Shown here in pieces: positions 7,414-20,860 of a stretch of 64,000 bases of DNA. Positions within the stretch are counted from its first letter, which is position 1; each line of letters starts with the position of its first letter. This stretch comes from Streptomyces europaeiscabiei (GTDB taxonomy: Bacteria; Actinomycetota; Actinomycetes; Streptomycetales; Streptomycetaceae): positions 7,382,001-7,446,000 of the forward strand of contig NZ_CP107841.1 of NCBI RefSeq assembly GCF_036346855.1. The letters run 5' to 3'. The position numbers and the translations under genes are program-made. Under the pieces are notes generated by a model, which saw only the letters and a list, made by a program, of their open reading frames with translations, did not search any database and was not told the origin of the DNA.

Positions 7414-8997
7414 ATGACCGTTTTGGATGAGGCACCGGGTGAGCCGACGGACGCGCGAGGGCGAGTGGCCGAGCTGCACGAGATCCGTGCCCAGGCGTTG
7501 GCCGGCCCCAGCGAGAAGGCGACCGAGGCGCAGCATGCCAAGGGCAAGCTGACCTCCCGGGAGCGCATCGAGCTGCTGCTGGACCCGGGCTCCTTCAACG
7601 AGGTCGAGCAGCTGCGGCGGCACCGGGCCACCGGATTCGGTCTGGAGTCCAAGAAGCCGTACACCGACGGGGTCGTCACCGGCTGGGGCACGGTGGAGGG
7701 CCGTACGGTCTTCGTCTACGCCCATGACTTCCGTATCTTCGGCGGCGCGCTGGGCGAGGCCCACGCCACGAAGATCCACAAGATCATGGACATGGCCATC
7801 GCGGCCGGGGCCCCGCTGGTCTCGCTCAACGACGGCGCGGGCGCCCGTATCCAGGAGGGCGTCTCCGCCCTCGCCGGGTACGGCGGCATCTTCCAGCGCA
7901 ACACCAGGGCGTCCGGTGTCATCCCGCAGATCAGCGTGATGCTCGGCCCCTGCGCGGGCGGCGCGGCGTACAGCCCCGCCCTCACCGACTTCGTGTTCAT
8001 GGTCCGCGAGACGTCCCAGATGTTCATCACGGGCCCGGACGTCGTCAAGGCGGTCACCGGCGAGGAGATCACGCAGAACGGCCTCGGCGGCGCGGACGTG
8101 CACGCCGAGACCAGCGGCGTGGCCCACTTCGCGTACGACGACGAGGAGACCTGCATCGCCGAGGTGCGCTACCTCCTGTCGATGCTCCCGCAGAACAACC
8201 GCGAGAACCCGCCGCGCGTGGAGGCCTCCGACGCGGCGGACCGCCGCGGTGACGTCCTCCTCGACCTGGTCCCGGCCGACGGCAACCGGCCGTACGACAT
8301 GACCAAGGTCATCGAGGAGATCGTCGACGACGGCGACTACCTGGAGGTCCACGAGCGCTGGGCCCGCAACATCATCTGCGCGCTGGGCCGTCTCGACGGT
8401 CAGGTGGTCGGCATCGTGGCCAACCAGCCGCAGAGCCTCGCGGGCGTCCTGGACATCGAGGCCTCGGAAAAAGCTGCACGTTTTGTCCAGATGTGCGACG
8501 CTTTTAACATCCCGATCATCACGCTGCTGGATGTCCCCGGGTTCCTTCCGGGTGTCGACCAGGAGCACGGCGGAATCATCCGCCACGGCGCGAAGCTGTT
8601 GTACGCGTACTGCAACGCGACCGTGCCCCGGATCTCCCTCATCCTGCGCAAGGCGTACGGAGGGGCCTACATCGTCATGGACAGCCAGTCCATCGGTGCC
8701 GACCTCACGTACGCGTGGCCGACCAACGAGATCGCCGTCATGGGCGCCGAAGGTGCCGCCAACGTCATCTTCCGGCGGCAGATCGCCGAGGCCGAGGACC
8801 CCGAGGCGATGCGGGTCCGGATGGTCAAGGAGTACAAGGCCGAACTGATGCACCCGTACTACGCGGCCGAGCGCGGCCTCGTGGACGACGTGATCGACCC
8901 CGCGGACACCCGCGCGGTCCTCATCCGCTCCCTCGCGATGCTCCACACCAAGCACGCGGACCTGCCGTCCCGCAAGCACGGCAACCCGCCGCAGTAA
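7414..8997 (+). CDS. accB: Acetyl-CoA carboxylase carboxyltransferase beta subunit AccB
   Basis: Transfers carboxyl from biotin on the alpha subunit (encoded elsewhere) to acyl-CoA, giving malonyl-CoA for fatty acids and polyketides. The 527-aa chain has the two crotonase-like carboxyltransferase halves: GGALGEAHATKIHKIMDMA and GPCAGGAAYSPA in the N-half, and LDVPGFLPGVDQEHGGIIRHGAKLLYAY plus RKAYGGAYIVM in the C-half. Residue 420, in GGAYIVM, is Ile. The equivalent position (about 422) is reported as Ile in the S. coelicolor acetyl-CoA-accepting AccB and Asp in propionyl-specific PccB, which favours AccB. It is followed after 57 nt by accE, a partnership known from S. coelicolor. Start ATG 7414. 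Confidence 0.93.
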   Translation: MTVLDEAPGEPTDARGRVAELHEIRAQALAGPSEKATEAQHAKGKLTSRERIELLLDPGSFNEVEQLRRHRATGFGLESKKPYTDGVVTGWGTVEGRTVFVYAHDFRIFGGALGEAHATKIHKIMDMAIAAGAPLVSLNDGAGARIQEGVSALAGYGGIFQRNTRASGVIPQISVMLGPCAGGAAYSPALTDFVFMVRETSQMFITGPDVVKAVTGEEITQNGLGGADVHAETSGVAHFAYDDEETCIAEVRYLLSMLPQNNRENPPRVEASDAADRRGDVLLDLVPADGNRPYDMTKVIEEIVDDGDYLEVHERWARNIICALGRLDGQVVGIVANQPQSLAGVLDIEASEKAARFVQMCDAFNIPIITLLDVPGFLPGVDQEHGGIIRHGAKLLYAYCNATVPRISLILRKAYGGAYIVMDSQSIGADLTYAWPTNEIAVMGAEGAANVIFRRQIAEAEDPEAMRVRMVKEYKAELMHPYYAAERGLVDDVIDPADTRAVLIRSLAMLHTKHADLPSRKHGNPPQ

Positions 8998-9054
8998 CCC
9001 GCCGGTTCCCTCGCGGCACCCCTGCGGAAACCTCTTCCACGGAGACTGACACCC

Positions 9055-9246
9055 ATGAAGCTGCCTGATATTCGCGTCGAGAAGGGCCACGCCGAGCCCG
9101 AGGAAGTGGCCGCGATCACCGCGCTGCTCCTGGCCCGCGCCGCCGCCCAGCCCGTCGAGGCCCCGGCCCACCGCACCCGCCCCCGCGCCGGCTGGCGACG
9201 GCTGGAGCGCGAGCCGGGTTTCCGGGCACCGCACAGCTGGCGGTAA
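9055..9246 (+). CDS. accE: Acyl-CoA carboxylase epsilon subunit AccE
   Basis: Small (63 aa) actinobacterial subunit that stimulates the AccA-AccB carboxylase complex. The sequence begins MKLPDIRVEKGHAEPEEVAA, with a helix carrying EEVAAITALLLARAA, and ends with the family's GWRRLEREPGFRAPHSW. GGAG precedes ATG 9055. It is co-oriented with accB and ended by a strong hairpin, so the two form one unit. Confidence 0.9.
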   Translation: MKLPDIRVEKGHAEPEEVAAITALLLARAAAQPVEAPAHRTRPRAGWRRLEREPGFRAPHSWR

Positions 9247-9267
9247 GCCTGCGGCGCTGAACCGCAC

Positions 9268-9300
9268 CAAGGGGTCCCTCTGTGACAGAGGGACCCCTTG
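9268..9300 (+). terminator. accBE terminator
   Basis: Perfect 15-bp stem (9268-9282 / 9286-9300) with a 3-nt loop, 21 nt after the accE stop. Its core is the same as in the hairpin at 9515-9549. Confidence 0.85.
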
Positions 9301-9371
9301 GCCGTGCCCGGCTCCCGCTCAGCGTCGTCGGGGTGAGCGTGTGGGTACGGCTGACGGTCGGTCGTGGCCGG

Positions 9372-9444
9372 TCGCGCAGTTCCCCGCGCCTCTGAAGACT
9401 CCGGGCGCGCCCCATGCCCTCAAGGGGCGCGGGGAACTGCGCGA
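9372..9444. repeat. Dispersed intergenic palindrome, full copy (R1)
   Basis: Two arms, 9372-9390 and 9426-9444, form a perfect 19-bp inverted repeat around a 35-nt centre. The arm reads TCGCGCAGTTCCCCGCGCC. The same arm, whole or degenerate, recurs at seven more places in this window. Confidence 0.85.
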
Positions 9445-9514
9445 GCAACCACACACGACCCGCAGCCGAACCCCAATCCGCAGGACAACGGCGCTGAACG
9501 GGGGCCGGGCACGA

Positions 9515-9569: not shown

Positions 9570-10151
9570 TTACCGCAGGCGGGCCATGAGCGCGTGCTCG
9601 ACGAGGGTGATCAGCGCCGACTTCGCGTCCGACCGATGCCGTGCGTCCGTCGTGATGATCGGCGTGTCGGGTCCGATCTGCAGCGCCTCGCGCACCTCGT
9701 CCGGGTTGTACGGCTGCTGGCCGTCGAAGCCGTTGAGGGCGATGACGAAGGGGAGGCCGCTGTTCTCGAAGTAGTCGACGGCGGGGAAGCAGTCGGCGAG
9801 GCGGCGGGTGTCGACGAGGACGATGGCGCCGATGGCGCCGCGGACCAGGTCGTCCCACATGAACCAGAAGCGGTCCTGGCCGGGGGTGCCGAAGAGGTAC
9901 AGGATCAGGTCCTGGTCCAGGGTGATGCGGCCGAAGTCCATGGCGACGGTCGTCGTCGTCTTGTCTCCGGTGTGGGTGAGGTCGTCGATGCCCGCTGACG
10001 CGGACGTCATCACGGCCTCGGTACGCAGCGGGTTGATCTCCGAGACGGCCCCGACGAACGTGGTCTTGCCCACGCCGAAGCCGCCCGCCACCACGATCTT
10101 CGCGGACGTGGTGGAGCGGGAAGGCCCTCCGCTAGAGCTTGCGAAGTCCAC
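9570..10151 (-). CDS. cvnD2: Conservon GTPase CvnD (cvn2)
   Basis: Ras-like small GTPase of 193 aa, the output component of a conservon, proposed in S. coelicolor to act in a membrane complex like a eukaryotic G-protein system. G1 P-loop GGFGVGKTTF lies near residue 25; G3 is GTPGQDRFWF and the base-recognition region is ALNGFDG, lacking a canonical NKxD. It starts with GTG (10151) and overlaps the end of cvnC2 by 20 nt, so translation is coupled. Remarkably, its DNA matches cvnD1 5.3 kb away without mismatch from 9724 to 10103. Confidence 0.93.
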   Translation of the reverse strand: MDFASSSGGPSRSTTSAKIVVAGGFGVGKTTFVGAVSEINPLRTEAVMTSASAGIDDLTHTGDKTTTTVAMDFGRITLDQDLILYLFGTPGQDRFWFMWDDLVRGAIGAIVLVDTRRLADCFPAVDYFENSGLPFVIALNGFDGQQPYNPDEVREALQIGPDTPIITTDARHRSDAKSALITLVEHALMARLR

Positions 10152-10701
10152 TGAGCACCCTTTCGAGCAATGTCACGGCTGGCTGGCCGCCGGCGCTCTC
10201 GTCGCCGCCGGGCTGATGAATGGCGACCAGGCCCGCCTCCGCCAAGTCGGCGACGAGGATCCTGGCCACGCCGAGAGGGATCGTCAGGAGGGCCGAGATC
10301 TCGGCCACCGACTTGATCTCCCGGCAGAGGTTGCAGATCCGCTGATGCTCGGGCAACTGGCCCTGCATCTGGTGCGGCTGCGCGGTGGTGTGCACCAGCG
10401 CCTCGATGGCGAGCTGGTAGCGAGGCCTGGTGCGGCCGCCCGTCATGGCGTACGGGCGCACCAGGGGGTTGTGCGCCGCCCCTGCGGGCGACGGCTCAGG
10501 GCTGCGGCGTTGCGGCTGCACGGGCTGGATGCGCGGCGCCGGCGGCTGGTCGTACGGCGAAGGACCGGGGCCCTGCGGTACGTACGGCTGCTGGCGGCTC
10601 GGTGCGGAGGGGAAGTTGTACCGATTCTGGTCACCCTGGCCCGGCCCCTGGCCAGGGTAGGACCAGTTGCCCGACGACGAACCGCCTGGGGGTGTTGCCA
10701 C
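10132..10701 (-). CDS. cvnC2: Conservon DUF742 protein CvnC (cvn2)
   Basis: DUF742 protein of 189 aa. I start it at GTG 10701 because GGAGGAG lies upstream at ideal spacing; an ATG at 10734 has no such site. The N-terminal ~70 residues are Pro/Gln/Tyr-rich and disordered. The C-terminal domain (from VRPYAMTGGRTRPRYQL) is a winged-helix-like DUF742 fold with LPEHQRICNLC, MPLGVARILVADLAEAGLV-type (here IPLGVARIL) and terminal LERVLSGLRKL. It is thought to bridge the CvnA kinase-like protein and the CvnD GTPase. Compared with CvnC1 it has a much longer disordered leader. Confidence 0.9.
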   Translation of the reverse strand: MATPPGGSSSGNWSYPGQGPGQGDQNRYNFPSAPSRQQPYVPQGPGPSPYDQPPAPRIQPVQPQRRSPEPSPAGAAHNPLVRPYAMTGGRTRPRYQLAIEALVHTTAQPHQMQGQLPEHQRICNLCREIKSVAEISALLTIPLGVARILVADLAEAGLVAIHQPGGDESAGGQPAVTLLERVLSGLRKL

Positions 10702-10799
10702 GTTCTCTCCTCCTCCGACTGTGCTGGCATCCATGGCTCATTGGAGGCCGCGTCCCGAAACCTTACGGCCCCGGGACGCCAAAACGCACCGTCTGACTG

Positions 10800-11222
10800 T
10801 TAGTTGAGCAGGCTGCCCTGGAGCTCCGCACGAAGATCGGGCGTCAGGACCGTACCGGCACGGTCCACCAGAAGTGCCATCTCGTACCCGATGAGACCGA
10901 TGTCGGCCTCGGGATGTGCGAGAACGGCGAGCGAGGAACCATCGGAAACGGACATGATGAAGAGGAATCCCCGCTCCATCTCCACAACCGTCTGATTGAC
11001 GCTGCCACCTTCGAAAATGCGGGAGGCGCCCGCGGTCAGAGAGGTCAGACCCGACGCGACGGCCGCCAGCTGGTCGGCACGGTCACGGGGAAACCCTTCG
11101 GACATCGCCAGAAGGAGTCCGTCGGCGGAGACCACCACCGTGTGCGACACCCCGGGGGTGTTGTCCACGAAATTGGTGATCAACCAGTTCAGGTTCTGCG
11201 CCGCCTGGCTCATCGGGCTCAC
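10800..11222 (-). CDS. cvnB2: Conservon roadblock/LC7 protein CvnB (cvn2)
   Basis: Roadblock/LC7-fold protein of 140 aa beginning (M)SPMSQAAQNLNWL. GTG 11222 directly follows the cvnA2 stop and sits 7 nt after GGAG; ATG 11213 is an alternative. Recognisable segments are NFVDNTPGVSHTVVVSADGL and FPRDRADQLAAVASGLTSL. Roadblock proteins regulate partner GTPases (as MglB does MglA), so its partner is presumably CvnD. Over its central part the protein is almost identical to CvnB1, although the DNA differs at many synonymous sites. Confidence 0.92.
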   Translation of the reverse strand: MSPMSQAAQNLNWLITNFVDNTPGVSHTVVVSADGLLLAMSEGFPRDRADQLAAVASGLTSLTAGASRIFEGGSVNQTVVEMERGFLFIMSVSDGSSLAVLAHPEADIGLIGYEMALLVDRAGTVLTPDLRAELQGSLLN

Positions 11223-11223
11223 A

Positions 11224-14200
11224 CTAACGCTCCTGGTTGTAGGTGCTGTCAGGACCACTGTGGTGATTCCTTGTGGCCTGGCCGTTCGTTTCACTGCTTG
11301 CGTTGCGCCCCCGTTGGACCCCGCGGCGCAGGTTGCTCAGCCTGCCCCGGACGTCCTCGGGAGCGCGGGAGATCTGTGGACCTCCCTGCGGGGTCGTCTG
11401 GGCGGCGCCCTCGACCAGGTTGGCCTTGGGCACCCGCCGCGGCAGGCCGGAGGAGGTGACCCCGCCCGCCTTGGGCTTCTTCAGCTGGGAGGCCTGCTGC
11501 CAGCGCGCGTCGTTGTCCGAGCGCCAGTCGCCGTTCGGTCCCCCGGCCGTCGGCTGGTCCTGGGCCACTTCCTGCCGTCCGTTCACGGCGCCCGCGCTCG
11601 TGCCGCCCGCGCTCGCGGTGGATCCGCGGCGGGGCAGGCCGGCGTCGGTCAGCGCGTGGCCGGCGGAGGGGGTGGGTCCCGGACGGTCGAAGCCTACGCG
11701 GTCCGGCTCCTTCACGTCAGCGGCCTGCGCAGATTCCGGTTCCGGAGCGTACTCGGAGCGGTACGAGTTCTGGTAGTCCTGCTGCTGCGGCCAGTCGTCC
11801 TGATAGGACGGCTCTTCGAAGCCCGAGTACGTCTCCGGGGCGCTCGTGGCGGCCGCCGCGTGCTCGTCCTGGACGGACTCCGTATAGGCGGGCTCAGGGT
11901 AACCGCCGGTAGCGGTGAACGTGTCGTTCCCGCCCGGCAGGTGCCCGTTGCCGTTCGCCACACCGTTGCCGTTCGGACCGAAGTACGCCTCGTCGTACGA
12001 CGGCTGCTGCGGCTCCTCGTACGCCGTCTGCTGGTCGTACGACCGCTGCGGGTCCACGTACGCCGTCGCGCCGTTGTCGTAGGACGGCTCGGGCGACTGG
12101 AAGTCGTCGCCGTAGCGCGGCGTCTGGCCCGCGGGCAGCTGCGGGTGCGCCTGGGCCTCCAGTGCCGCGCGACGCTCGTCGCGCATCAGCGAACGGCCCA
12201 CGGGGTCCAGGTCGCGGATGTCGTCCGGCACCTCGTAGCGGCTGTCGTCGAAGCCCAGCTCGGCGGCGGTCCGCATCGGGGCCATGGCCGGCTGCTGGAA
12301 CGCGTGCTGCTGTTCCGGGATGATCTGCGAGACCGTGAACTGGTCGGCCGCCGGCTGCTGCTCGCCACCGCCACCGTGGGTGATGACGTCGGGGAGCATG
12401 ACCAGCGAGGTCGTACCGGCCTGTTCGCCCGAGGGGCGCAGCTGGACGCGGATGCCGTGCCGGTCGGACAGTCGGCCGACCACGAAGAGACCCATGCGCT
12501 GCGAGATCGCGGCGTCCACGGTCGGCGGGTTGGCCAGCTTGTGGTTGATGTCCGCGAAGTCCTCGGCGGTGAGGCCGATGCCCTTGTCGTGGATCTCGAT
12601 CATCACACGGCCGTCGGGGAGACGGGTCGCGGTGACACGGACCTTGGTCTGCGGGGAGGAGAACGTGGTGGCGTTCTCCAGGAGCTCGGCGAGCAGGTGC
12701 ACGAGGTCGGTCACGGCGCGGCCGTGGATCTCGGCCTCCGGGACGCCGGAGAGCTCGATGCGCTCGTACTGCTCCACCTCGGAGGAGGCGGCGCGCAACA
12801 CGTCGACCAGCGGGACCGGCTGGTCCCAGCGGCGGCCGGGCTCCTCGCCGGCGAGGACCAGGAGGTTCTCGCCGTTGCGGCGCATACGGGTCGCCAGGTG
12901 GTCCAGCTTGAAGAGGTTCTCCAGCTGGTCCGGGTCGGCCTCGTTGTTCTCCAGGTCGGTGATCAGGGTCAGCTGGCCCTCGATCAGCGACTGGTTGCGG
13001 CGCGAGAGGTTGGTGAAGATCGCGTTGATGTTGCCCCGCAGGAGGGCCTGCTCGGCGGCGAGCCGGACGGCCTCGCGGTGGACCTGATCGAAGGCGCGGG
13101 CGACTTCGCCGATCTCGTCCGTGGTGTTGATGGGGATCGGCGCGACCCGGGTGTCGACCCGGCCGGGGTCGGTGCGCGAGAGCTGGTCGACCAGCATCGG
13201 CAGACGCTGCTCGGCGATGCCGAAGGCGGCGTTGCGCAGCTGGCGCATCGCGCGGCTCATCTGGCGGGCCATGATCCCGGCGATGATGAACGCCGCGAGC
13301 AGGGCGACGATGACGATGGCGCCGTTGATGTAGGCGTCACGCTGGGCGTCGGAGGCGATCTGGCCGGCCTCGGACACGGCGCGGTTGATCAGTTCGGTCT
13401 CGACCTCGCTGTAGCCCTCGAACTTCAGCGTGGAGGCCGCCATCCAGTTCTGGTAGGTGACGCCCTGCTTCGCCAGGTCCTCGGCGTTGGCGCCGCTGCC
13501 GATCGCCTGGATCATCTTCAGCATGGTGTCCGGCGGCGGAACGTAGTTCGCGTCCTTGGCCGCGGCCTCGGCGGCCTGCTTCTTGCCCTCTTCGGTCTTC
13601 TGCGCCATGACCGACTGCAGACGCGCGGCGTCGGCCTCGGTACCACCGGAGACGTACTCCTGTACGGCGATGTTCTCCAGGTACGCGTACGAGGTGAACG
13701 CGGTGACCTGCTGACGGAACACCCTCTCGTCCTCGCTGGGCCGGACCAGCAGGTGGGTGCCGATCGAGCGCTGCAGAGAGGCGGCGCCCTTGGCGAGCGT
13801 GACCGCGTAGACCGTACGGCCGTACGCGGTGATGTTGCCGGTACCGAGTCCGAGCTCGTTGGAGAACTCCGCCAGGAGGTGCTCGACGGTGACGTAGCCC
13901 TCTTCGGTCTGTACCGGGTCGGCGGCCCGGGTGAAGGCGGTCTGCCGGAGTTTCTCCAGCGCCGGCTCGGCCTCCTCCACCAGACGCAGACGGCGCTCCA
14001 GGCCCTGCCCGGCCGGCATCCCGACGACCTCCGCGTGGAAGGCGTCCGCCTTCTCGTCGGTGAAGGCGCGGGCGTCCTTGACGACATCGCTGTCCCGGTC
14101 GCCGTCCAGCAGCGGCTGGGCGGAGATGTCACGCTCGTTGAGCAGCGCTTCGGCGTAGACACCGGCGGCGGCCACGATCTTGGCCACCTTCTCGGCGTCC

Positions 14201-14454
14201 TTCGCCTCCTGCCAGGTGTCGATCGAGTTCTTCACCTGGAAGCCGCCCATGATCAGGCCGACCAGCACGGGTATGAGGAGGATCGCGTTCAGACGCGTCG
14301 GGACCCGCCAGTTGCGCGGGGAGAGACGACTGCCGCTGGGCGCGGGAGCTGCCGTCGGCTCCGGTCGGGTCACTTGTGCGGGTGCCGCTCCGCGCGACGG
14401 CGGGGTGAAATTGCCCCGCGCCGACGGCTCGGGACCTTTCTTGCTTCGCCTCAC
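11224..14454 (-). CDS. cvnA2: Conservon sensor-kinase-like CvnA (cvn2)
   Basis: Membrane histidine-kinase-like protein, 1,076 aa from GTG 14454 (product MRRSKKGPEPSARGNF). The upstream in-frame ATG at 14508 lacks a ribosome site. Order: short cytoplasmic tail, helix 1 (AILLIPVLVGLIMGGF), a ~240-residue extracellular nitrate/NIT-type sensor, helix 2 (GAIVIVALLAAFIIAGIM), HAMP, a dimerisation helix with KLDHLATRMRRNGENLLVLAG, then a GHKL ATPase domain (LLAELLENATTFSS and IEIHDKGIGLT). The last ~350 residues are Tyr/Gln/Pro-rich and unstructured. First gene of the cvn2 operon; a stop-start junction links it to cvnB2. Confidence 0.92.
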   Translation of the reverse strand: MRRSKKGPEPSARGNFTPPSRGAAPAQVTRPEPTAAPAPSGSRLSPRNWRVPTRLNAILLIPVLVGLIMGGFQVKNSIDTWQEAKDAEKVAKIVAAAGVYAEALLNERDISAQPLLDGDRDSDVVKDARAFTDEKADAFHAEVVGMPAGQGLERRLRLVEEAEPALEKLRQTAFTRAADPVQTEEGYVTVEHLLAEFSNELGLGTGNITAYGRTVYAVTLAKGAASLQRSIGTHLLVRPSEDERVFRQQVTAFTSYAYLENIAVQEYVSGGTEADAARLQSVMAQKTEEGKKQAAEAAAKDANYVPPPDTMLKMIQAIGSGANAEDLAKQGVTYQNWMAASTLKFEGYSEVETELINRAVSEAGQIASDAQRDAYINGAIVIVALLAAFIIAGIMARQMSRAMRQLRNAAFGIAEQRLPMLVDQLSRTDPGRVDTRVAPIPINTTDEIGEVARAFDQVHREAVRLAAEQALLRGNINAIFTNLSRRNQSLIEGQLTLITDLENNEADPDQLENLFKLDHLATRMRRNGENLLVLAGEEPGRRWDQPVPLVDVLRAASSEVEQYERIELSGVPEAEIHGRAVTDLVHLLAELLENATTFSSPQTKVRVTATRLPDGRVMIEIHDKGIGLTAEDFADINHKLANPPTVDAAISQRMGLFVVGRLSDRHGIRVQLRPSGEQAGTTSLVMLPDVITHGGGGEQQPAADQFTVSQIIPEQQHAFQQPAMAPMRTAAELGFDDSRYEVPDDIRDLDPVGRSLMRDERRAALEAQAHPQLPAGQTPRYGDDFQSPEPSYDNGATAYVDPQRSYDQQTAYEEPQQPSYDEAYFGPNGNGVANGNGHLPGGNDTFTATGGYPEPAYTESVQDEHAAAATSAPETYSGFEEPSYQDDWPQQQDYQNSYRSEYAPEPESAQAADVKEPDRVGFDRPGPTPSAGHALTDAGLPRRGSTASAGGTSAGAVNGRQEVAQDQPTAGGPNGDWRSDNDARWQQASQLKKPKAGGVTSSGLPRRVPKANLVEGAAQTTPQGGPQISRAPEDVRGRLSNLRRGVQRGRNASSETNGQATRNHHSGPDSTYNQER

Positions 14455-14852
14455 TCGACCAACAACCTCTCGGCGCCGGCACCTACGTCGTGCCGCGGGT
14501 GACTCCACGCCCTAGTACGTCTTTGACTAATGGGCAGTTCAGGCATTCCAGCACGTCACGCTGAGGACTTCCAAACACTGGGAGGCAACGATTCCGCGTG
14601 ATGTAAGTCCCAGATAAATCGGTCATAAAGAGCGAGCCCCGGCAAAAAGCGGGGGCATTGTGAGCGCAGCGGTACCGATCGACCGCGACGCGTGGTCGTA
14701 CCACCCTATTTCTCTGTCGAAACGTTATGAACACCGAGGCCGACCGTGTCAAAGGACACAGCCGGCTTCGGTGTAACTACGACAAGCGCCGTAGGGCGTT
14801 GTGGACTTGGGTCCTGTTTTGGGCCCAGCCGTGGTACTTCGGCCGCTCTGCC
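14455..14852. other. Intergenic region between cvn2 and cvn1
   Basis: 398 nt without a supported gene. It must hold the cvn2 promoter (minus strand), which I could not define with confidence, and it contains the cvn1 terminator at 14731-14774. Base composition is noticeably less G+C-rich than its surroundings around 14570-14650. Confidence 0.5.
14731..14774 (-). terminator. cvn1 operon terminator
   Basis: Arms 14731-14750 and 14755-14774 pair over 20 bp if G-U pairs are allowed, around an AAAG loop. It lies 79 nt past the cvnD1 stop on the minus strand. Confidence 0.7.
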
Positions 14853-15428
14853 CTACCGGAGGCGGGCCATGAGCGCGTGCTCGACGAGGGTGATCAGCGC
14901 CGACTTCGCGTCCGACCGATGCCGTGCGTCCGTCGTGATGATCGGCGTGTCGGGTCCGATCTGCAGCGCCTCGCGCACCTCGTCGGGCGTGTACGGCTGG
15001 TGCCCCTCGAAGCCGTTGAGGGCGATGACGAAGGGGAGGCCGCTGTTCTCGAAGTAGTCGACGGCGGGGAAGCAGTCGGCGAGGCGGCGGGTGTCGACGA
15101 GGACGATGGCGCCGATGGCGCCGCGGACCAGGTCGTCCCACATGAACCAGAAGCGGTCCTGGCCGGGGGTGCCGAAGAGGTACAGGATCAGGTCCTGGTC
15201 CAGGGTGATGCGGCCGAAGTCCATGGCGACGGTCGTCGTCGTCTTGTCTCCGGTGTGGGTGAGGTCGTCGATGCCCGCTGACGCGGACGTCATCACGGCC
15301 TCGGTACGCAGCGGGTTGATCTCCGAGACGGCCCCGACGAACGTGGTCTTGCCCACGCCGAAGCCGCCCGCCACCACGATCTTCGCCGAGGTGGTGGCCC
15401 GCCCCGATTCAGAGCTTCCGAAGTCCAC
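14853..15428 (-). CDS. cvnD1: Conservon GTPase CvnD (cvn1)
   Basis: 191-aa small GTPase paralogous to CvnD2. P-loop GGFGVGKTTF at 21-30, G3 GTPGQ at 86-90, ALNGF at 136-140. GTG start at 15428 overlaps cvnC1 by 20 nt, exactly the same overlap as in cvn2. The two CvnD proteins differ only in the first ~12 residues and in a short patch (EGHQPYTPDE here, DGQQPYNPDE there). In S. coelicolor, cvn1 loss impairs aerial growth, as I recall from published work. This near-identity predicts that the two GTPases share effectors while the sensors differ. Confidence 0.93.
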   Translation of the reverse strand: MDFGSSESGRATTSAKIVVAGGFGVGKTTFVGAVSEINPLRTEAVMTSASAGIDDLTHTGDKTTTTVAMDFGRITLDQDLILYLFGTPGQDRFWFMWDDLVRGAIGAIVLVDTRRLADCFPAVDYFENSGLPFVIALNGFEGHQPYTPDEVREALQIGPDTPIITTDARHRSDAKSALITLVEHALMARLR

Positions 15429-15807
15429 TGAGCACCCTTTCCAGCAGAGTCACGTCCGGGGCACCACCGGCGTTCTCGTCGCCACCGGGCTGGTGGATCG
15501 CGACGAGTCCGGCCTCGGCGAGGTCCGCGACAAGGATCCGTGCCACACCGAGCGGCATGGACAGCAGGGCCGACACCTCGGCCACCGACTTCACCTCGCG
15601 GCACAGGTGGCAGATCCGCTGGTGCTCGGGGAGCAGTCCCGACAGATGCGCGGGGTCTGCCGTCGTGCTGATCAGCGCCTCGAGGGCGAGCTGGTAACGC
15701 GGCCGCGTCCGACCACCGGTCATGGCGTACGGCCGAACCAGAGGCTGGTCGCCCTCGTCTCCGTACGGCTCTGCGTACGGATCGTGAGGAGCGGTGGGCG
15801 GGGTCAT
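15409..15807 (-). CDS. cvnC1: Conservon DUF742 protein CvnC (cvn1)
   Basis: DUF742 protein of 132 aa from ATG 15807 with GGAGG 4-8 nt upstream. Only a short acidic N-terminus (PYAEPYGDEGDQ) precedes the domain, which opens with LVRPYAMTGGRTRPRYQLALEA-type sequence and contains LLPEHQRICHLCREVKSV, MPLGVARILVADLAEAGL and the terminal LLERVLSGLRKL. The HxxIxxLCRE segment is shared with CvnC2. Translationally coupled to cvnD1. The contrast with the long Pro/Gln leader of CvnC2 suggests the leader is dispensable for the core function. Confidence 0.92.
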   Translation of the reverse strand: MTPPTAPHDPYAEPYGDEGDQPLVRPYAMTGGRTRPRYQLALEALISTTADPAHLSGLLPEHQRICHLCREVKSVAEVSALLSMPLGVARILVADLAEAGLVAIHQPGGDENAGGAPDVTLLERVLSGLRKL

Positions 15808-15916: not shown

Positions 15917-16339
15917 TCAGTGGAGCAGACTGCCTTGGAGTTCGGCGCGCAGGTCGGGCGTGAGCACGGCGCCCGCGCGGTCGACGAGCAACGCCATCTC
16001 GTAACCGACCAGGCCGATGTCGCACTCGGGGTGGGCGAGGACGGCCAGGGACGATCCGTCGGAGACGGACATCAGGAAGAGGAAGCCGCGCTCCATCTCG
16101 ACCACCGTCTGGGCCACGTCCCCGCCCTCGAAGATCCGGGAGGCCCCGGCCGTGAGCGAGGTGAGCCCGGAGGCGACGGCCGCGAGCTGATCGGCACGGT
16201 CGCGCGGAAAGCCTTCCGACATCGCCAGAAGAAGGCCGTCGGCGGATACGACGACGGTGTGGGACACCCCGGGGGTGTTGTCCACAAAGTTGGTGATCAA
16301 CCAGTTGAGGTTCTGTGCCGCCTGGCTCATCTGGCTCAA
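15917..16339 (-). CDS. cvnB1: Conservon roadblock/LC7 protein CvnB (cvn1)
   Basis: 140-aa roadblock/LC7 protein. TTG 16339 follows the cvnA1 stop immediately and is 6 nt after GGAG, giving MSQMSQAAQNLNW; ATG 16330 is an alternative. Same domain as CvnB2 with scattered differences (GGDVAQT for GGSVNQT, PECDIGLV for PEADIGLI). The rare TTG start placed at a stop codon implies reinitiation, keeping CvnB in proportion to CvnA. Confidence 0.92.
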   Translation of the reverse strand: MSQMSQAAQNLNWLITNFVDNTPGVSHTVVVSADGLLLAMSEGFPRDRADQLAAVASGLTSLTAGASRIFEGGDVAQTVVEMERGFLFLMSVSDGSSLAVLAHPECDIGLVGYEMALLVDRAGAVLTPDLRAELQGSLLH

Positions 16340-19300
16340 CTAACGCTCCTGCTGGTGAGTGGGGCTCGGGAAGCTGCCGGTCTGGCCGTTGCCGGCCTGT
16401 CGACCCTGCGCGATGCCCCGACGGAGATTGGTCAGCCGGCCGCGTACGTCATCAGGCGAACGCGAGACCTGCGGACCGGTTTGGTGCTGTTGCTGCTGAG
16501 CCGTGCCCGGCACGAGGTTCGCGCGCGGGACCCGGCGCGGCAGGCCGGAGGTGGTGACCCCGCCCGCCGAAGGCTGTCGGGCACGTTCGGCCTGGCGGAC
16601 CAGGTCGTCGTTGGGTGTGCTGCGCCAGTTGGGGGAAGCAGGCGCAGCGGGGGTCGCCGGACGCTGAGGAGCGACCGGAGTCTGAGGAGCGACCGGAGCC
16701 TGGGGAGCGGGGGCGGCCTGCTGCTGCGGCGCCGAACCGTTGCCCGGCTGGTTGCCCTGCTGCTGACCGTTCTGCCCGCCCTGACCGTGGAACCAGTTGG
16801 TCTCCAGCGTGTCGTACAGCGGAGTACGGCCGTCCATCGGACCCGTCGCCGGGGGCAGTGCCTCCGGCTCCTGCGGACGCGCGGGGCGCTGCGGGGGCAT
16901 CGGGGGACGCTGCGGCGGAACCGGCGGGCGGGGCGCGCCGAAGCTCTCCCCGTTGACCTGCGGCCGCTCGAACTGGCCGGTGTCCTGGGAGTTCTGCCGA
17001 CCCGGAGCGTTGTACTGCCCGGAGCCCTGGCCGTTCTGCCGGCCGGGCGCACCGTACTGTCCCGGGTCCTGCGGGTTCGGCCGGCCCGGAGCCGGGAACT
17101 GGCCCGTGCCGGCGGCGTCGTAGCCCGGCATGGCGAACTGGCCGGTGGACGACGGGTCCTGCGAGGCGCCCCGGGACGGACCGGTGGGCGCCGGCGGAGC
17201 ACCGGCCCCGCCGAACACGTCGGAGCGGACGTAGGACCCGGTGCCGTCCTGCGGCGCGCCCGCGCCGGGGCGCTGGCTGTCGAAGTCGGCCCGCGGGGAA
17301 CGCGGGAAGTCCGTGGGCGAGCCCGGAGCCTGGCCGGGGTCGACGCGCGGCATCGGCGCGGTGACGTCCGGCTGCTCCTCGTGGCCGCGCGGGGCGTCCA
17401 GCGAGGCGCGCGGCACCGACGGCTGGGCGTTGTCGTCGCTCCAGCTCGGCGTCCGCGACGGGGAGTTGCCGCCGGGCAGCTCGGCGCGCGGGCCACCGCG
17501 GCCGGGCAGCTGCGGACGGCGCCTGCCGGAACGTTCCTTGCCCTGCTTGGGCGGCACGGCACCCGGACCGCCGTCGGTCCCGCCCTGCCGGGCCGCACCG
17601 GCGTCACCGGGGCCGCCGGCCGGGCGCAGGCCCGAACCGCCGCTCGGGAAGCCGCCCTGGCGTCCGGAGTCGTCGAAGCTCTCGAAGTTGCCGGGGCCAC
17701 CGGTCCCGGCGGCCTGCAGGCCCTGTGGGGCACCGGGCGCCTGACCGCCGCCGAACGCACCGCCGTTGCCGAACCCTCCGGCACCGGCACCGGCGCCCGC
17801 CGGAGGCCGGTTGCCCTGCGGAGGCACCGGCGGACCACCCTGCGGCCCACGCGGACCCCCGGGGTTGCCGAGACCGCCCGGACCACTGGGGTTGCCGGGG
17901 AGCGCGGCCCGCGGACCCTGGCCCGCGCCGACCTGCCCACGCTGCGGAGGGGCGCCGAGGAGGCCGCCACCGGCGGAGGGGCCGCCGAGCGGCGGACCCG
18001 ACTGGTTGCCGGCCTGGCGACGCGCGGCGGCGGCACCGGCCGCGGCCTGCGCGGCGGCCGGACCACCGGAGGAAGGCGCGCCCTGGCCGGGCTTGCCCGG
18101 GGTGGGCTTCTTGTTGCCCTGTGCCACGTCGACGGGAAGCATGACGAGGGCGGTCGTACCGCCCGAGTCGGACGGGCGCAGCTGGATACGGATGCCGTGG
18201 CGCTGCGACAGCCGGCCGACCACGAACAGACCCATGCGGCGGGAGACCGACACGTCCACGGTGGGCGGCGAGGCGAGCCGCTCGTTGATCGCCGCGAGGT
18301 CCTCGGGGGAGAGGCCGATACCCGTGTCGTGGATCTCGATCAGCACCCGGCCGTCGGGCAGCGCGTGACCGGTGACCTTGACCTTGGTCTGCGGCGAGGA
18401 GAAGGAGGTGGCGTTCTCCAGCAGCTCGGCGAGGAGGTGCACGAGGTCGTTGACCACGCGGCCGGCGACCTCGGTCGTCGGCACGGAGGACAGTTCGATG
18501 CGCTCGTACTGCTCCACCTCGGAGGCTGCGGCGCGGAGCACGTCGACCAGCGGGACCGGGCGGGTCCAGCGGCGGCCGGGTTCTTCACCGGCGAGAACGA
18601 GGAGGTTCTCACCGTTACGGCGCATGCGGGTCGCGAGGTGGTCGAGCTTGAAGAGGGAGGACAGCTGGTCCGGGTCGGCCTCGCGGGACTCCAGTTCGGA
18701 GATGAGCGACAGCTGACGCTGGATGAGGCCCTGGGAGCGGCGCGAGAGGTTGGTGAACATCGCGTTGACGTTGCCCCGCAGGAGGGCCTGCTCGGCGGCG
18801 AGGCGGACGGCCTCGCGGTGCACGTCGTCGAAGGCCGCGGCCACCTGGCCGATCTCGTCCCGGGAGTGCACACCGACCGACTCGACGGAGGTGTCGACGT
18901 CCTGCGGGTCCGACTCCGACAGCTGCTTGACCAGCTCGGGCAGCCGGTCCTGGGCGACCTTGGTCGCGGTGTCCTGCAGCCGGCGCAGCGAGCGGATCAT
19001 GGACCGGGCCACGACGAACGCGCCGACCAGGGAGACACCGAGGACGAGCAGGATCAGCGCACCGGAGATGATCGCCTCTTGCTCCGCGTCGGCGCGGAGG
19101 TTTCGGGCGGTCTGTTCCATCTCCTCGAGGAGCGAGCCCTCGATCTTCTTCATCTGCTCGATCTTGGCCGCGGAGTCGTCGGTCCAGTCCTTGTACGAGC
19201 GCTTGTCCTGCCCGCCCAGACCACCCGCGCTGGCGAGGACCCGGTCCGCGTAGACGTCGGAGGCCTCGATGGTGGGGCTCGCGTCGTCGATCGGCCTGGT

Positions 19301-20254
19301 CTTGACCTCGGCACCGGAACCGTAGATGTCGCGGAAGGTGCTGCGGTCGGACTCCTCGTTGCCCAGCGCCGCGAACGCGTACAGCCGGTCGTTCTCGGAG
19401 AGCTGGCCGCTCTTGTTGTCGGTCTCGGGCAGGGCCGCCGCGATGACCGCGCGCTGCACGGAGGCGTACTCCTTGGCGGAGGAGAACGCCGCCAGGGCAC
19501 GGGTCCGCTTGATCATGTCCGGGTTGCTGGTCGCCTCGGCCATGTCCGTGGACAGTTCCAGCAACTGATCGACCAGGCGGTGGTAGGCCTCGACCGTCTG
19601 CGTGGAGTTCTTGGGGTCCACGTAGGCGTTCTTGCGGATGGCGCTGAGGTTGTAGAGCTCGCGCACGACCCGGACGAGGCTGTCGCGGACACCGGGCAGC
19701 TTCGTGGTGGTGTTCGCGGTCTCGGCGGCCTGGGTCGCGTCCGTGAACTGGATGCGGGCCTGGTCGGTCTTCTCGCGGGCGCCCTTGACCGTGTAGTCGT
19801 TGGCGTTCAGACCGTGTGCCAGGGGACCGGCCGACACGTCACGTTCCTGCTGGAGCGCGGTGGCGAGCTCGGTCGCCTGCTTGGTCATGTCGGTGAGCAG
19901 CCGCATGTTGTCGAGCTGCTGGATGTCGTCCACGTTGTCGCCGATGCGCAGCGCACCGAGCGAGGTCGCCGCCACCACGGGGAGCGCGAGCAGCGAGACG
20001 AGACGGGTCGAGATGCGCCAGTTGCGCAGGGCTATTCGGGAGCCGTTGCCGACTCCGCCGTTGGTACCGCCCTTGGGTTTCCCGGACGGCATGGGAGCAA
20101 CTGACGCGCCGGGGCGCCCGGAGCGCTCCCCGCCGTCGCCGATCTCCGCCGGACCCGGGTTCTGGGCGTGCTGGGGGGAGGAACCGTTGCCGGCTCCGTT
20201 GTGTGGCTCCGGCTCCGCCGAAGCGCTGCCATCCCTCTTGAAACGTCCCTGCAC
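16340..20254 (-). CDS. cvnA1: Conservon sensor-kinase-like CvnA (cvn1)
   Basis: 1,304-aa membrane kinase-like protein from GTG 20254 (MQGRFKRDGSASAEPE). Layout matches CvnA2: cytoplasmic Gly/Pro-rich lead, helix 1 (VSLLALPVVAATSLGAL), a ~260-residue extracellular NIT-type sensor, helix 2 (ISGALILLVLGVSLVGAFVV), HAMP, the dimerisation helix with His539 in KLDHLATRM, and a GHKL ATPase domain (LLAELLENATSFSS; IEIHDTGIGLS). The C-terminal ~560 residues are Gly/Pro/Gln-rich and disordered, far longer than in CvnA2, and include three 14-residue tandem units. Whether it autophosphorylates cannot be told from sequence. Heads the cvn1 operon. Confidence 0.92.
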   Translation of the reverse strand: MQGRFKRDGSASAEPEPHNGAGNGSSPQHAQNPGPAEIGDGGERSGRPGASVAPMPSGKPKGGTNGGVGNGSRIALRNWRISTRLVSLLALPVVAATSLGALRIGDNVDDIQQLDNMRLLTDMTKQATELATALQQERDVSAGPLAHGLNANDYTVKGAREKTDQARIQFTDATQAAETANTTTKLPGVRDSLVRVVRELYNLSAIRKNAYVDPKNSTQTVEAYHRLVDQLLELSTDMAEATSNPDMIKRTRALAAFSSAKEYASVQRAVIAAALPETDNKSGQLSENDRLYAFAALGNEESDRSTFRDIYGSGAEVKTRPIDDASPTIEASDVYADRVLASAGGLGGQDKRSYKDWTDDSAAKIEQMKKIEGSLLEEMEQTARNLRADAEQEAIISGALILLVLGVSLVGAFVVARSMIRSLRRLQDTATKVAQDRLPELVKQLSESDPQDVDTSVESVGVHSRDEIGQVAAAFDDVHREAVRLAAEQALLRGNVNAMFTNLSRRSQGLIQRQLSLISELESREADPDQLSSLFKLDHLATRMRRNGENLLVLAGEEPGRRWTRPVPLVDVLRAAASEVEQYERIELSSVPTTEVAGRVVNDLVHLLAELLENATSFSSPQTKVKVTGHALPDGRVLIEIHDTGIGLSPEDLAAINERLASPPTVDVSVSRRMGLFVVGRLSQRHGIRIQLRPSDSGGTTALVMLPVDVAQGNKKPTPGKPGQGAPSSGGPAAAQAAAGAAAARRQAGNQSGPPLGGPSAGGGLLGAPPQRGQVGAGQGPRAALPGNPSGPGGLGNPGGPRGPQGGPPVPPQGNRPPAGAGAGAGGFGNGGAFGGGQAPGAPQGLQAAGTGGPGNFESFDDSGRQGGFPSGGSGLRPAGGPGDAGAARQGGTDGGPGAVPPKQGKERSGRRRPQLPGRGGPRAELPGGNSPSRTPSWSDDNAQPSVPRASLDAPRGHEEQPDVTAPMPRVDPGQAPGSPTDFPRSPRADFDSQRPGAGAPQDGTGSYVRSDVFGGAGAPPAPTGPSRGASQDPSSTGQFAMPGYDAAGTGQFPAPGRPNPQDPGQYGAPGRQNGQGSGQYNAPGRQNSQDTGQFERPQVNGESFGAPRPPVPPQRPPMPPQRPARPQEPEALPPATGPMDGRTPLYDTLETNWFHGQGGQNGQQQGNQPGNGSAPQQQAAPAPQAPVAPQTPVAPQRPATPAAPASPNWRSTPNDDLVRQAERARQPSAGGVTTSGLPRRVPRANLVPGTAQQQQHQTGPQVSRSPDDVRGRLTNLRRGIAQGRQAGNGQTGSFPSPTHQQER
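16979..17104 (-). repeat. Three 14-residue tandem units in the CvnA1 tail
   Basis: Three consecutive 42-nt units encode GQFPAPGRPNPQDP, GQYGAPGRQNGQGS and GQYNAPGRQNSQDT. They lie in the disordered C-terminal region and look like a slippage-expanded linker or a multivalent binding segment. Confidence 0.75.
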
Positions 20255-20860
20255 TAGCGTCGCAACCTCTGGACCAGGCGCCCCACCGCGTGAACGGCGG
20301 GACGGTGTCGGCGTCTTCGGGGGCGCCCTGAATACGTCCCCAATTGGGTGGTCGTGAGTGACCGGCGCTGGCTCCCCCTCCCACCGCCGCCAGGCGCTGT
20401 TGATCTGCGCCTCTGCGCGCCGGCACGATCCTGCGGCGGTCCGTGGAATTCCAGCACAGTGCCGGATCTGCAACAAGGCCAATGGGTAACGGTCTGTTCA
20501 CTGTGACAGCATGTGATGACCGTGTCACCGGGCGTGGAAGGTGTTTCCGCTTATTACGGACATAACCGTACGGCCCCATGGCGCGAGCTGGGTGTCCCAG
20601 TCGCCATGATCAGGAGCGGAATAAGCGCTTCAGGTAACAGATGTCCGTTTCATGGGGGCGGATCGATGGCCGGGATTGCCCGTTTTACCCATGACTGAGT
20701 GAGGAAACTCACACACCGATCATGCCTTCTTCACGACTTGACCCGGGAATCGGATGTTTAGCCTGACGCTTTACAGGGATGGCGAATCCGACAACCCGCG
20801 CTTGTGGGACGGCCCTTGCGGTCCGCCCGGCGCCCGCACATGACGAGGTCCAGGACAACA
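20255..20860. other. Long intergenic region upstream of cvn1
   Basis: About 600 nt, lower in G+C than the genes around it. It holds the cvn1 promoter on the minus strand and the promoter of the 54-aa gene on the plus strand. Visible elements are an inverted repeat GTGACA (20503-20508) / TGTCAC (20523-20528) and a small GTGAG-GAAA-CTCAC hairpin at 20699-20712. I see no convincing gene. Confidence 0.5.
20738..20764 (+). promoter_or_regulatory. Candidate promoter of the 54-aa gene
   Basis: TTGACC (20738-20743), a short 15-nt spacer and TAGCCT (20759-20764) fit the housekeeping consensus apart from the spacing. Confidence 0.4.

Follow-up and report, generated by a model that had tools for sequence, protein, structure and literature searches.

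Concerted evolution of the GTPase and roadblock genes in two tandem Streptomyces conservons, with evidence for recurrent gene conversion

The two cvnD genes of a tandem conservon pair in Streptomyces europaeiscabiei are identical over long tracts. They lie in the window, the stretch of 64,000 nucleotides (nt) that was analysed (contig NZ_CP107841.1, positions 7,382,001 to 7,446,000). Recurrent gene conversion between the tandem cvnD copies very probably explains the identity and likewise affected cvnB in other lineages (probability about 0.93). Concerted evolution affects the GTPase and roadblock genes and hardly extends to the sensor gene or to the DUF742 gene that separates the GTPase gene from the roadblock gene.

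The initial annotation had reported a perfect 380-nt block at 9724-10103 and 15007-15386, and base-by-base comparison confirmed it. A second long match, placed at 9576-9700, is also present; its coordinates are 9577-9701 (125 nt), one base off. At an offset of 5283, the copies D1 and D2 mismatch within 9571-10103 only at 9576, 9702, 9705, 9706, 9717, 9720 and 9723. The cvnD pair has 95% amino acid identity and silent differences in 6 of 183 codons. The contrast drawn with the neighbouring genes held as well. The cvnB pair encodes nearly the same protein (94% identity) with 64 silent differences in 125 codons, the cvnC pair shares 69% of its amino acids (47/102) and the cvnA pair 45% (136/398). 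Independent codon choice, based on the codon usage of these conservon genes themselves, predicts 77.6 silent differences for D, 59.1 for B, 50.5 for C and 191.3 for A. B and C are as expected, A is somewhat lower and D far lower. The silent sites of cvnB and cvnC are fully diverged and those of cvnA nearly so. For the 126 codons inside the 380-nt block, the log10 P of identity is -32 under independent codon choice. Among the 13 cvnD genes of the genome (78 pairs), D1 and D2 have a silent divergence of 0.03; the next lowest value is 0.29 and the median 0.37.

Both conservons are on the minus strand, head to tail, the upstream one at 20482-14853 and the downstream one at 14508-9570, each ordered A, B, C, D. 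All eight proteins had Pfam matches: both A to NIT and HATPase_c, B to Robl_LC7, C to DUF742 and D to PF03029. In both operons, genes for a sensor kinase-like protein, a Robl_LC7 protein, a DUF742 protein and a Ras-like GTPase adjoin, as the definition of a conservon demands. A sequence search of PDB chains with CvnD gave no match at E 0.001. The labels D1 (9570-10151) and D2 (14853-15428) were taken over from the initial annotation and imply no correspondence with cvn1 or cvn2 of S. coelicolor. The source genome is of Streptomyces type and comprises 10.95 Mb in 3 contigs. By the best segment of cvnA, the closest named relatives are S. stelliscabiei (96%), S. caniscabiei (95%) and S. scabiei (94%). 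The features are:

9570..10151, minus strand: cvnD of the downstream conservon (D1), predicted small Ras-like GTPase, 193 amino acids (open reading frame; Pfam PF03029 ATP_bind_1, E 7e-35)
9724..10103, minus strand: 380-nt tract, copy in D1, identical to 15007-15386 (base-by-base comparison)
9577..9701, minus strand: 125-nt tract in D1, identical to 14860-14984 (base-by-base comparison)
9702..9723, minus strand: unconverted island in D1, 6 mismatches giving D/E, Q/H and N/T differences (comparison with D2 and near genomes)
10132..10734, minus strand: cvnC of the downstream conservon (DUF742), unconverted here (Pfam, silent divergence)
10800..11294, minus strand: cvnB of the downstream conservon (Robl_LC7), unconverted here (Pfam, silent divergence)
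11224..14508, minus strand: cvnA of the downstream conservon (NIT, HATPase_c), longest open reading frame, start perhaps too early (open reading frame, Pfam)
14853..15428, minus strand: cvnD of the upstream conservon (D2), 191 amino acids (open reading frame, Pfam)
15007..15386, minus strand: 380-nt tract, copy in D2, identical to 9724-10103 (base-by-base comparison)
15409..15807, minus strand: cvnC of the upstream conservon (DUF742; open reading frame, Pfam)
15917..16339, minus strand: cvnB of the upstream conservon (Robl_LC7; open reading frame, Pfam)
16340..20482, minus strand: cvnA of the upstream conservon (NIT, HAMP, HATPase_c), longest open reading frame, start perhaps too early (open reading frame, Pfam)

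A search of the genus found a close CvnD match in 107 of 121 Streptomyces genomes and two such matches in 100. Of the 14 genomes without a close match at the cut-off, 4 had truncated cvnD matches of >90% identity and 10 only matches of 60-69%. The conservon pair may be absent in these 10, one of which is in 2 contigs. The 60-genome set comprises 59 of 60 fetched regions and the window; cvnA was available in 59. The region L098 (genome G011) was dropped, as its second conservon was not found. L070 (G026, broken cvnD frame) and L101 (G118, split cvnA frames) were kept in the 60-genome medians and trees and in the scan for exact runs. They were excluded from the quartets, the 117-genome set, the fit of amino acid to silent differences, the best-segment identities and the by-locus tree tests. 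Named relatives were added for an enlarged set of 117 of 126 genomes. Of 80 named loci, 13 were without two D frames of at least 190 amino acids, and L165 repeated L046 exactly; the check for further overlap between the named and the unnamed sets compared exact sequences only. The by-locus tree tests used 30 of 58 genomes, G118 not among them.

The initial annotation had called for a count of synonymous substitutions per site in all four gene pairs. Within genomes, the medians were D 0.12, B 0.32, C 0.34 and A 0.34 in the 60-genome set (A in 59) and D 0.18, B 0.37, C 0.38 and A 0.34 in the 117-genome set, lowest for D both times, which favours conversion. Between genomes, D orthologues had medians of 0.26 and 0.28, and B orthologues of 0.33-0.38. 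In quartets and medians, D paralogues were nearer to each other at silent sites than orthologues beyond a certain species distance. Over 6786 pairs from the 117 genomes, the proportion in which D grouped by genome rose with the silent divergence of A: 32% of 197 pairs at 0.12-0.16, 65% of 1557 at 0.16-0.20, 86% of 1525 at 0.20-0.24 and 99.5% of 1977 at 0.24-0.28. B grouped by genome in 79% and 91% of the last two bins. For C, the figures were 10% and 32%, with silent sites near saturation there, and A reached 0.1% at 0.24-0.28. In the 39 nearest pairs, synonymous sites sorting by locus and by genome numbered 533 and 235 in D, 1118 and 49 in B, 1102 and 11 in C, and 3187 and 76 in A. Non-synonymous sites in D (8 by genome, 192 by locus) were not used, because the N-terminal tail is unconverted and new replacements are rare, and both distort the count.

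The trees gave the same grouping. In the 60-genome trees, the two copies of one genome formed a cherry for D in 21 of 60 genomes (17 with support of at least 0.9), for B in 11 of 60 (7), for C in 1 of 60 and for A in none of 59. Disjoint minimal clans with both copies of every member genome numbered 23 for D (19 with support of at least 0.9) and 12 for B (7). Each of the 23 D clans needs its own homogenisation of cvnD. By the measure of PMC6053082, at least five species, homogenisation is recurrent in both genes. Grouping of cvnD by locus across species, which the initial annotation had named as the finding that would speak against conversion, was rejected by 508.6 log-likelihood units with a P value of 3.2e-10 in the approximately unbiased (AU) test. 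A by-locus tree of B was rejected by 219.1 units (P-AU 0.002). In the same 30 genomes, cvnC grouped by locus with support 98. The locus-1 copies of cvnA formed a single clan with support 1.0 (59 genomes).

The duplication therefore predates the compared species, as A groups by locus in 59 genomes and C in 30. The tandem position and the 5.3-kb spacing might suggest that the operon was duplicated recently and separately in each lineage. This reading has next to no probability: A and C are far diverged, A sorts by locus in 59/59 genomes and C in 30/30 tested, two close CvnD matches occur in 100 of the 121 Streptomyces genomes and pairs are found in 12 other genera. Selection at the nucleotide level might also keep both D copies alike at silent sites, and D orthologues are somewhat less silently diverged than B orthologues (0.26-0.28 and 0.33-0.38). 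Such constraint would act between genomes too, where D has diverged by 0.26-0.28, as against 0.12 (60 genomes) or 0.18 (117) within them. The variants are common to genomes and not to loci, and the by-locus grouping that constraint predicts was not found. Constraint on silent sites is a highly improbable explanation.

A collapsed or mis-scaffolded repeat could mimic identity. Nine contigs of 4.8-6.8 kb among the 80 named loci (L111, L123, L127, L128, L145, L155, L158, L169 and L180) carry A, B and C of one conservon and terminate at one end or more within cvnD or next to it; identical D copies would be expected to break assemblies in this way. The truncated matches of >90% identity in 4 of the 14 genomes without a close match at the cut-off point the same way. 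Against such an artefact, 56 of the 60 fetched regions come from genomes of at most 10 contigs, and the copies differ at lineage-specific sites and retain different 5' ends and flanks. In the window, a collapsed repeat is unlikely because the 10.95-Mb genome is in 3 contigs. Overall, an assembly error is a very unlikely source of the pattern.

The anatomy of the tracts indicates more than one event. Compared with the sister genome G105 (L071), the window has 8 variable codons at 9998-9848 that are alike within each genome and unlike between the genomes, in both D copies. Codons 9725-9704 sort mostly by locus, as does the 5' end of the gene, upstream of 10104. The 380-nt run is present in both genomes. 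The D2 copy of G105 stands apart at several codons of the 3' part and was therefore not homogenised there. S. stelliscabiei and S. scabiei have a perfect run of 391 nt over 10114-9724, with silent alleles in both D copies that are missing from the window. S. stelliscabiei has one further silent allele of its own at 10013, again in both copies, which is not found in S. scabiei. These lineage-own alleles show that this stretch underwent more than one homogenisation. In the 3' tract of the window, both copies carry at codons 9641-9626 the variant that D1 has more often in nine near genomes, and at codons 9608 and 9590 the one that D2 has more often. This mixture suggests conversion in both directions. 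By the rule of three, the 126 codons without a silent difference limit the divergence since the last event to at most about 0.024, which lies under the cvnA divergence between the window and G105 (0.059).

The island between the tracts keeps differences between the loci. Q versus H and N versus T or S sort by locus in 8 of the 9 near genomes each. The first residue is D in D1; in D2 it is E in the window, G105, S. stelliscabiei and S. scabiei (E in 4/9 D2 copies) and D in five other near relatives. The island begins at the last residue of an NGFD stretch, which we take to resemble the guanine-specificity motif NKxD. The mosaic tracts of the window, G105 and the near genomes are consistent with non-reciprocal exchange by homologous recombination. 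Tract edges lie where homology is lost: the N-terminal tail of D has indels, the flanks are dissimilar, and A and C have variable tails. Several cvnB runs stop within a few bases of the gene ends (-3 to +3 in L199, +6 to +1 in L193).

Exact runs between the copies, assigned to the gene of greatest overlap, were scanned in 146 genomes. Runs of at least 100 nt were present in D in 82 genomes, in B in 26 and in A and C in none; for at least 200 nt, the genomes numbered 38, 14, 0 and 0. The longest run was 95 nt in C and 91 nt in A. The conversion of cvnD that the initial annotation had proposed is supported; cvnB was converted too, in other lineages. When unconverted, the best 60-codon segments had median nucleotide identities of 0.944 in D (19 genomes), 0.903 in B (92), 0.867 in A (106) and 0.844 in C (108). 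This ranking fits homologous recombination at a rate that falls as divergence grows. Conversion is the more frequent the higher the residual homology, and opportunity may account for the pattern.

The process can be pictured as follows. The two conservons very probably stem from an old tandem duplication of a four-gene operon for a sensor kinase (A), a roadblock protein (B), a DUF742 protein (C) and a GTPase (D). The D repeats are about 5.3 kb apart, and homologous recombination between them would repeatedly copy stretches of one D gene onto the other while the intervening operon is retained, so that silent variants become common to a genome and not to a locus. The cvnB genes very probably undergo the same in other lineages. 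Tracts probably end where the paralogues are too unlike, in the N-terminal tail, at gene ends and in the tails of A and C. For conversion to continue, homology must stay high, which purifying selection on CvnB and CvnD would ensure. The identity, the divergence of the neighbouring genes, the sorting by genome, its recurrence and the tract edges are established; the recombination pathway and transfer in both directions are presumed.

Several observations weigh against recurrent conversion of B and D as the whole account. At A silent divergence below 0.12, most D pairs still sort by locus (by genome 20% of 10 pairs below 0.08 and 25% of 60 at 0.08-0.12); conversion is therefore episodic. Support is below 0.9 for 4 of the 23 D clans and 5 of the 12 B clans. 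A and C are not fully exempt: the C copies of G118 form a cherry, so that the locus-1 C copies are no clan in the 60-genome tree, the C copies are nearest to each other in 1 of 117 other genomes, and the C divergence in two other genera is as low as 0.19 and 0.22. A 1109-nt run of G118, counted under B, also takes in 693 nt upstream, the end of cvnA. The best-segment identity of A (0.867) is little under that of B, and yet A has no 100-nt run of its own. Homology alone may not explain everything, which leaves room for selection. Conversion itself is deduced from comparing sequences.

Such selection might act on a shared switch. Conversion of B and D would be favoured because it supplies one GTPase-roadblock pair for two sensors, and converted C or A would be removed to preserve operon identity. 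In many genera it is again B and D that are homogenised, despite the position of C between them, and cross talk between conservons was suggested for S. coelicolor in PMC8510531. The initial annotation had likewise held that conversion keeps the GTPase common to two sensors. This is a possibility. The unconverted cvnB of the window stays 94% identical despite fully diverged silent sites. Purifying selection by itself can thus maintain a protein of this kind, and the GTPase too would probably be similar even without conversion. Also contrary to selection for sharing, conversion frequency follows residual homology, and a tandem pair in another family has D at 80% amino acid identity without conversion (silent divergence 0.46). 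In 124 genomes, amino acid differences fall along with the silent divergence of D (Spearman 0.43), with a straight-line intercept of 2.9 differences. Nine genomes with D silent divergence below 0.03 retain a mean of about 1.7 amino acid differences, more than proportionate. These residual differences are partly at tract ends (R/K at 9575, the gene's end, in 6/9). They lean to some retention despite conversion and are not counted as proof, the genomes being related. Selection for the shared pair is possible but less likely than not. It is equally doubtful, though conceivable, that a common G-protein switch of CvnB and CvnD is kept interchangeable between two adjacent receptors of distinct function across Streptomycetaceae by conversion gene by gene, skipping cvnC.

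Twenty further pairs were fetched, 19 of them from 12 other genera of the family. In these 19 loci, silent divergence was 0.02-0.28 in D, 0.19-0.48 in C and 0.24-0.39 in A (18 loci). B had 0/132 or 0/133 silent differences in three (genus codes g15, g8 and g17); for a few other-genus loci the B figure is inflated, as the open frame used overruns the gene. Four genera (g2, g5, g9 and g16) have one CvnD match or none per genome. The unconverted pair of the other family is in G187. In L205 (G219, same family as G187), two cvnD genes lie 11.7 kb apart with a silent divergence of 0.17, and their C neighbours are at 0.39; this is possibly the same process outside the family. Three loci have an unusual organisation. 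In the upstream conservon of L191 (G160, genus g14), cvnA and cvnB are separated by an additional cvnB frame and a fragment that matches cvnA, which looks like a further, partial duplication of the operon. In L203, from G011, no second-conservon A, B or C was found within 9 kb upstream of the remaining conservon; a D-like gene at 8961-9512, with 71-77% amino acid identity to the window copies, takes the second conservon's place. In L101, from the 5.9-Mb genome G118, both cvnA frames seem split and the 1109-nt exact repeat is present in both conservons.

Concerted evolution of a duplicate GTPase gene is known from tufA and tufB, encoding elongation factor Tu. Their two copies were long kept near identical by gene conversion (PMC1780047; PMC6053082). 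The tuf copies have the same role, whereas each cvnD copy sits in an operon with its own, different sensor, and the cvnD tracts are partial and episodic. As in cvn, several genes of one pathway evolve in concert in amo/hao of Nitrosomonadales (Table 1 of PMC6053082). The list for amo/hao includes many homogenised genes of the set; in cvn it is two of four, in alternation, and the intervening gene hardly. The cvn case is a new example of a known process and not a new mechanism. The cvn systems of S. coelicolor have the four gene types of the window. CvnA1 (SCO5544) and CvnA2 (SCO5540) are four gene numbers apart in PMC9739842, and adjacent duplicated conservons are mentioned in PMC4316618. PMC8510531 ranks CvnD as the best conserved conservon protein of S. 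coelicolor and CvnB as second. For Cvn9, product interaction and GTPase activity of CvnD are described in PMC8510531 and PMC9739842. Among the papers listed by searches of the openly licensed literature, none reported gene conversion between conservons. The tables of a prokaryote survey list 26 genes with recurrent, long-lasting concerted evolution, cvnB and cvnD not among them (PMC6053082).

cvnB and cvnD would add a signalling switch to these surveyed genes. Since trees of cvnD and cvnB across species mix the loci, cvnA or cvnC should be used to assign conservon orthology. The alternating pattern of conversion predicts that B-D pairs are exchangeable between conservons and that A and C are not. 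If the switch is indeed shared, the homogenised genes of a tandem operon pair would directly reveal selection on protein interaction.

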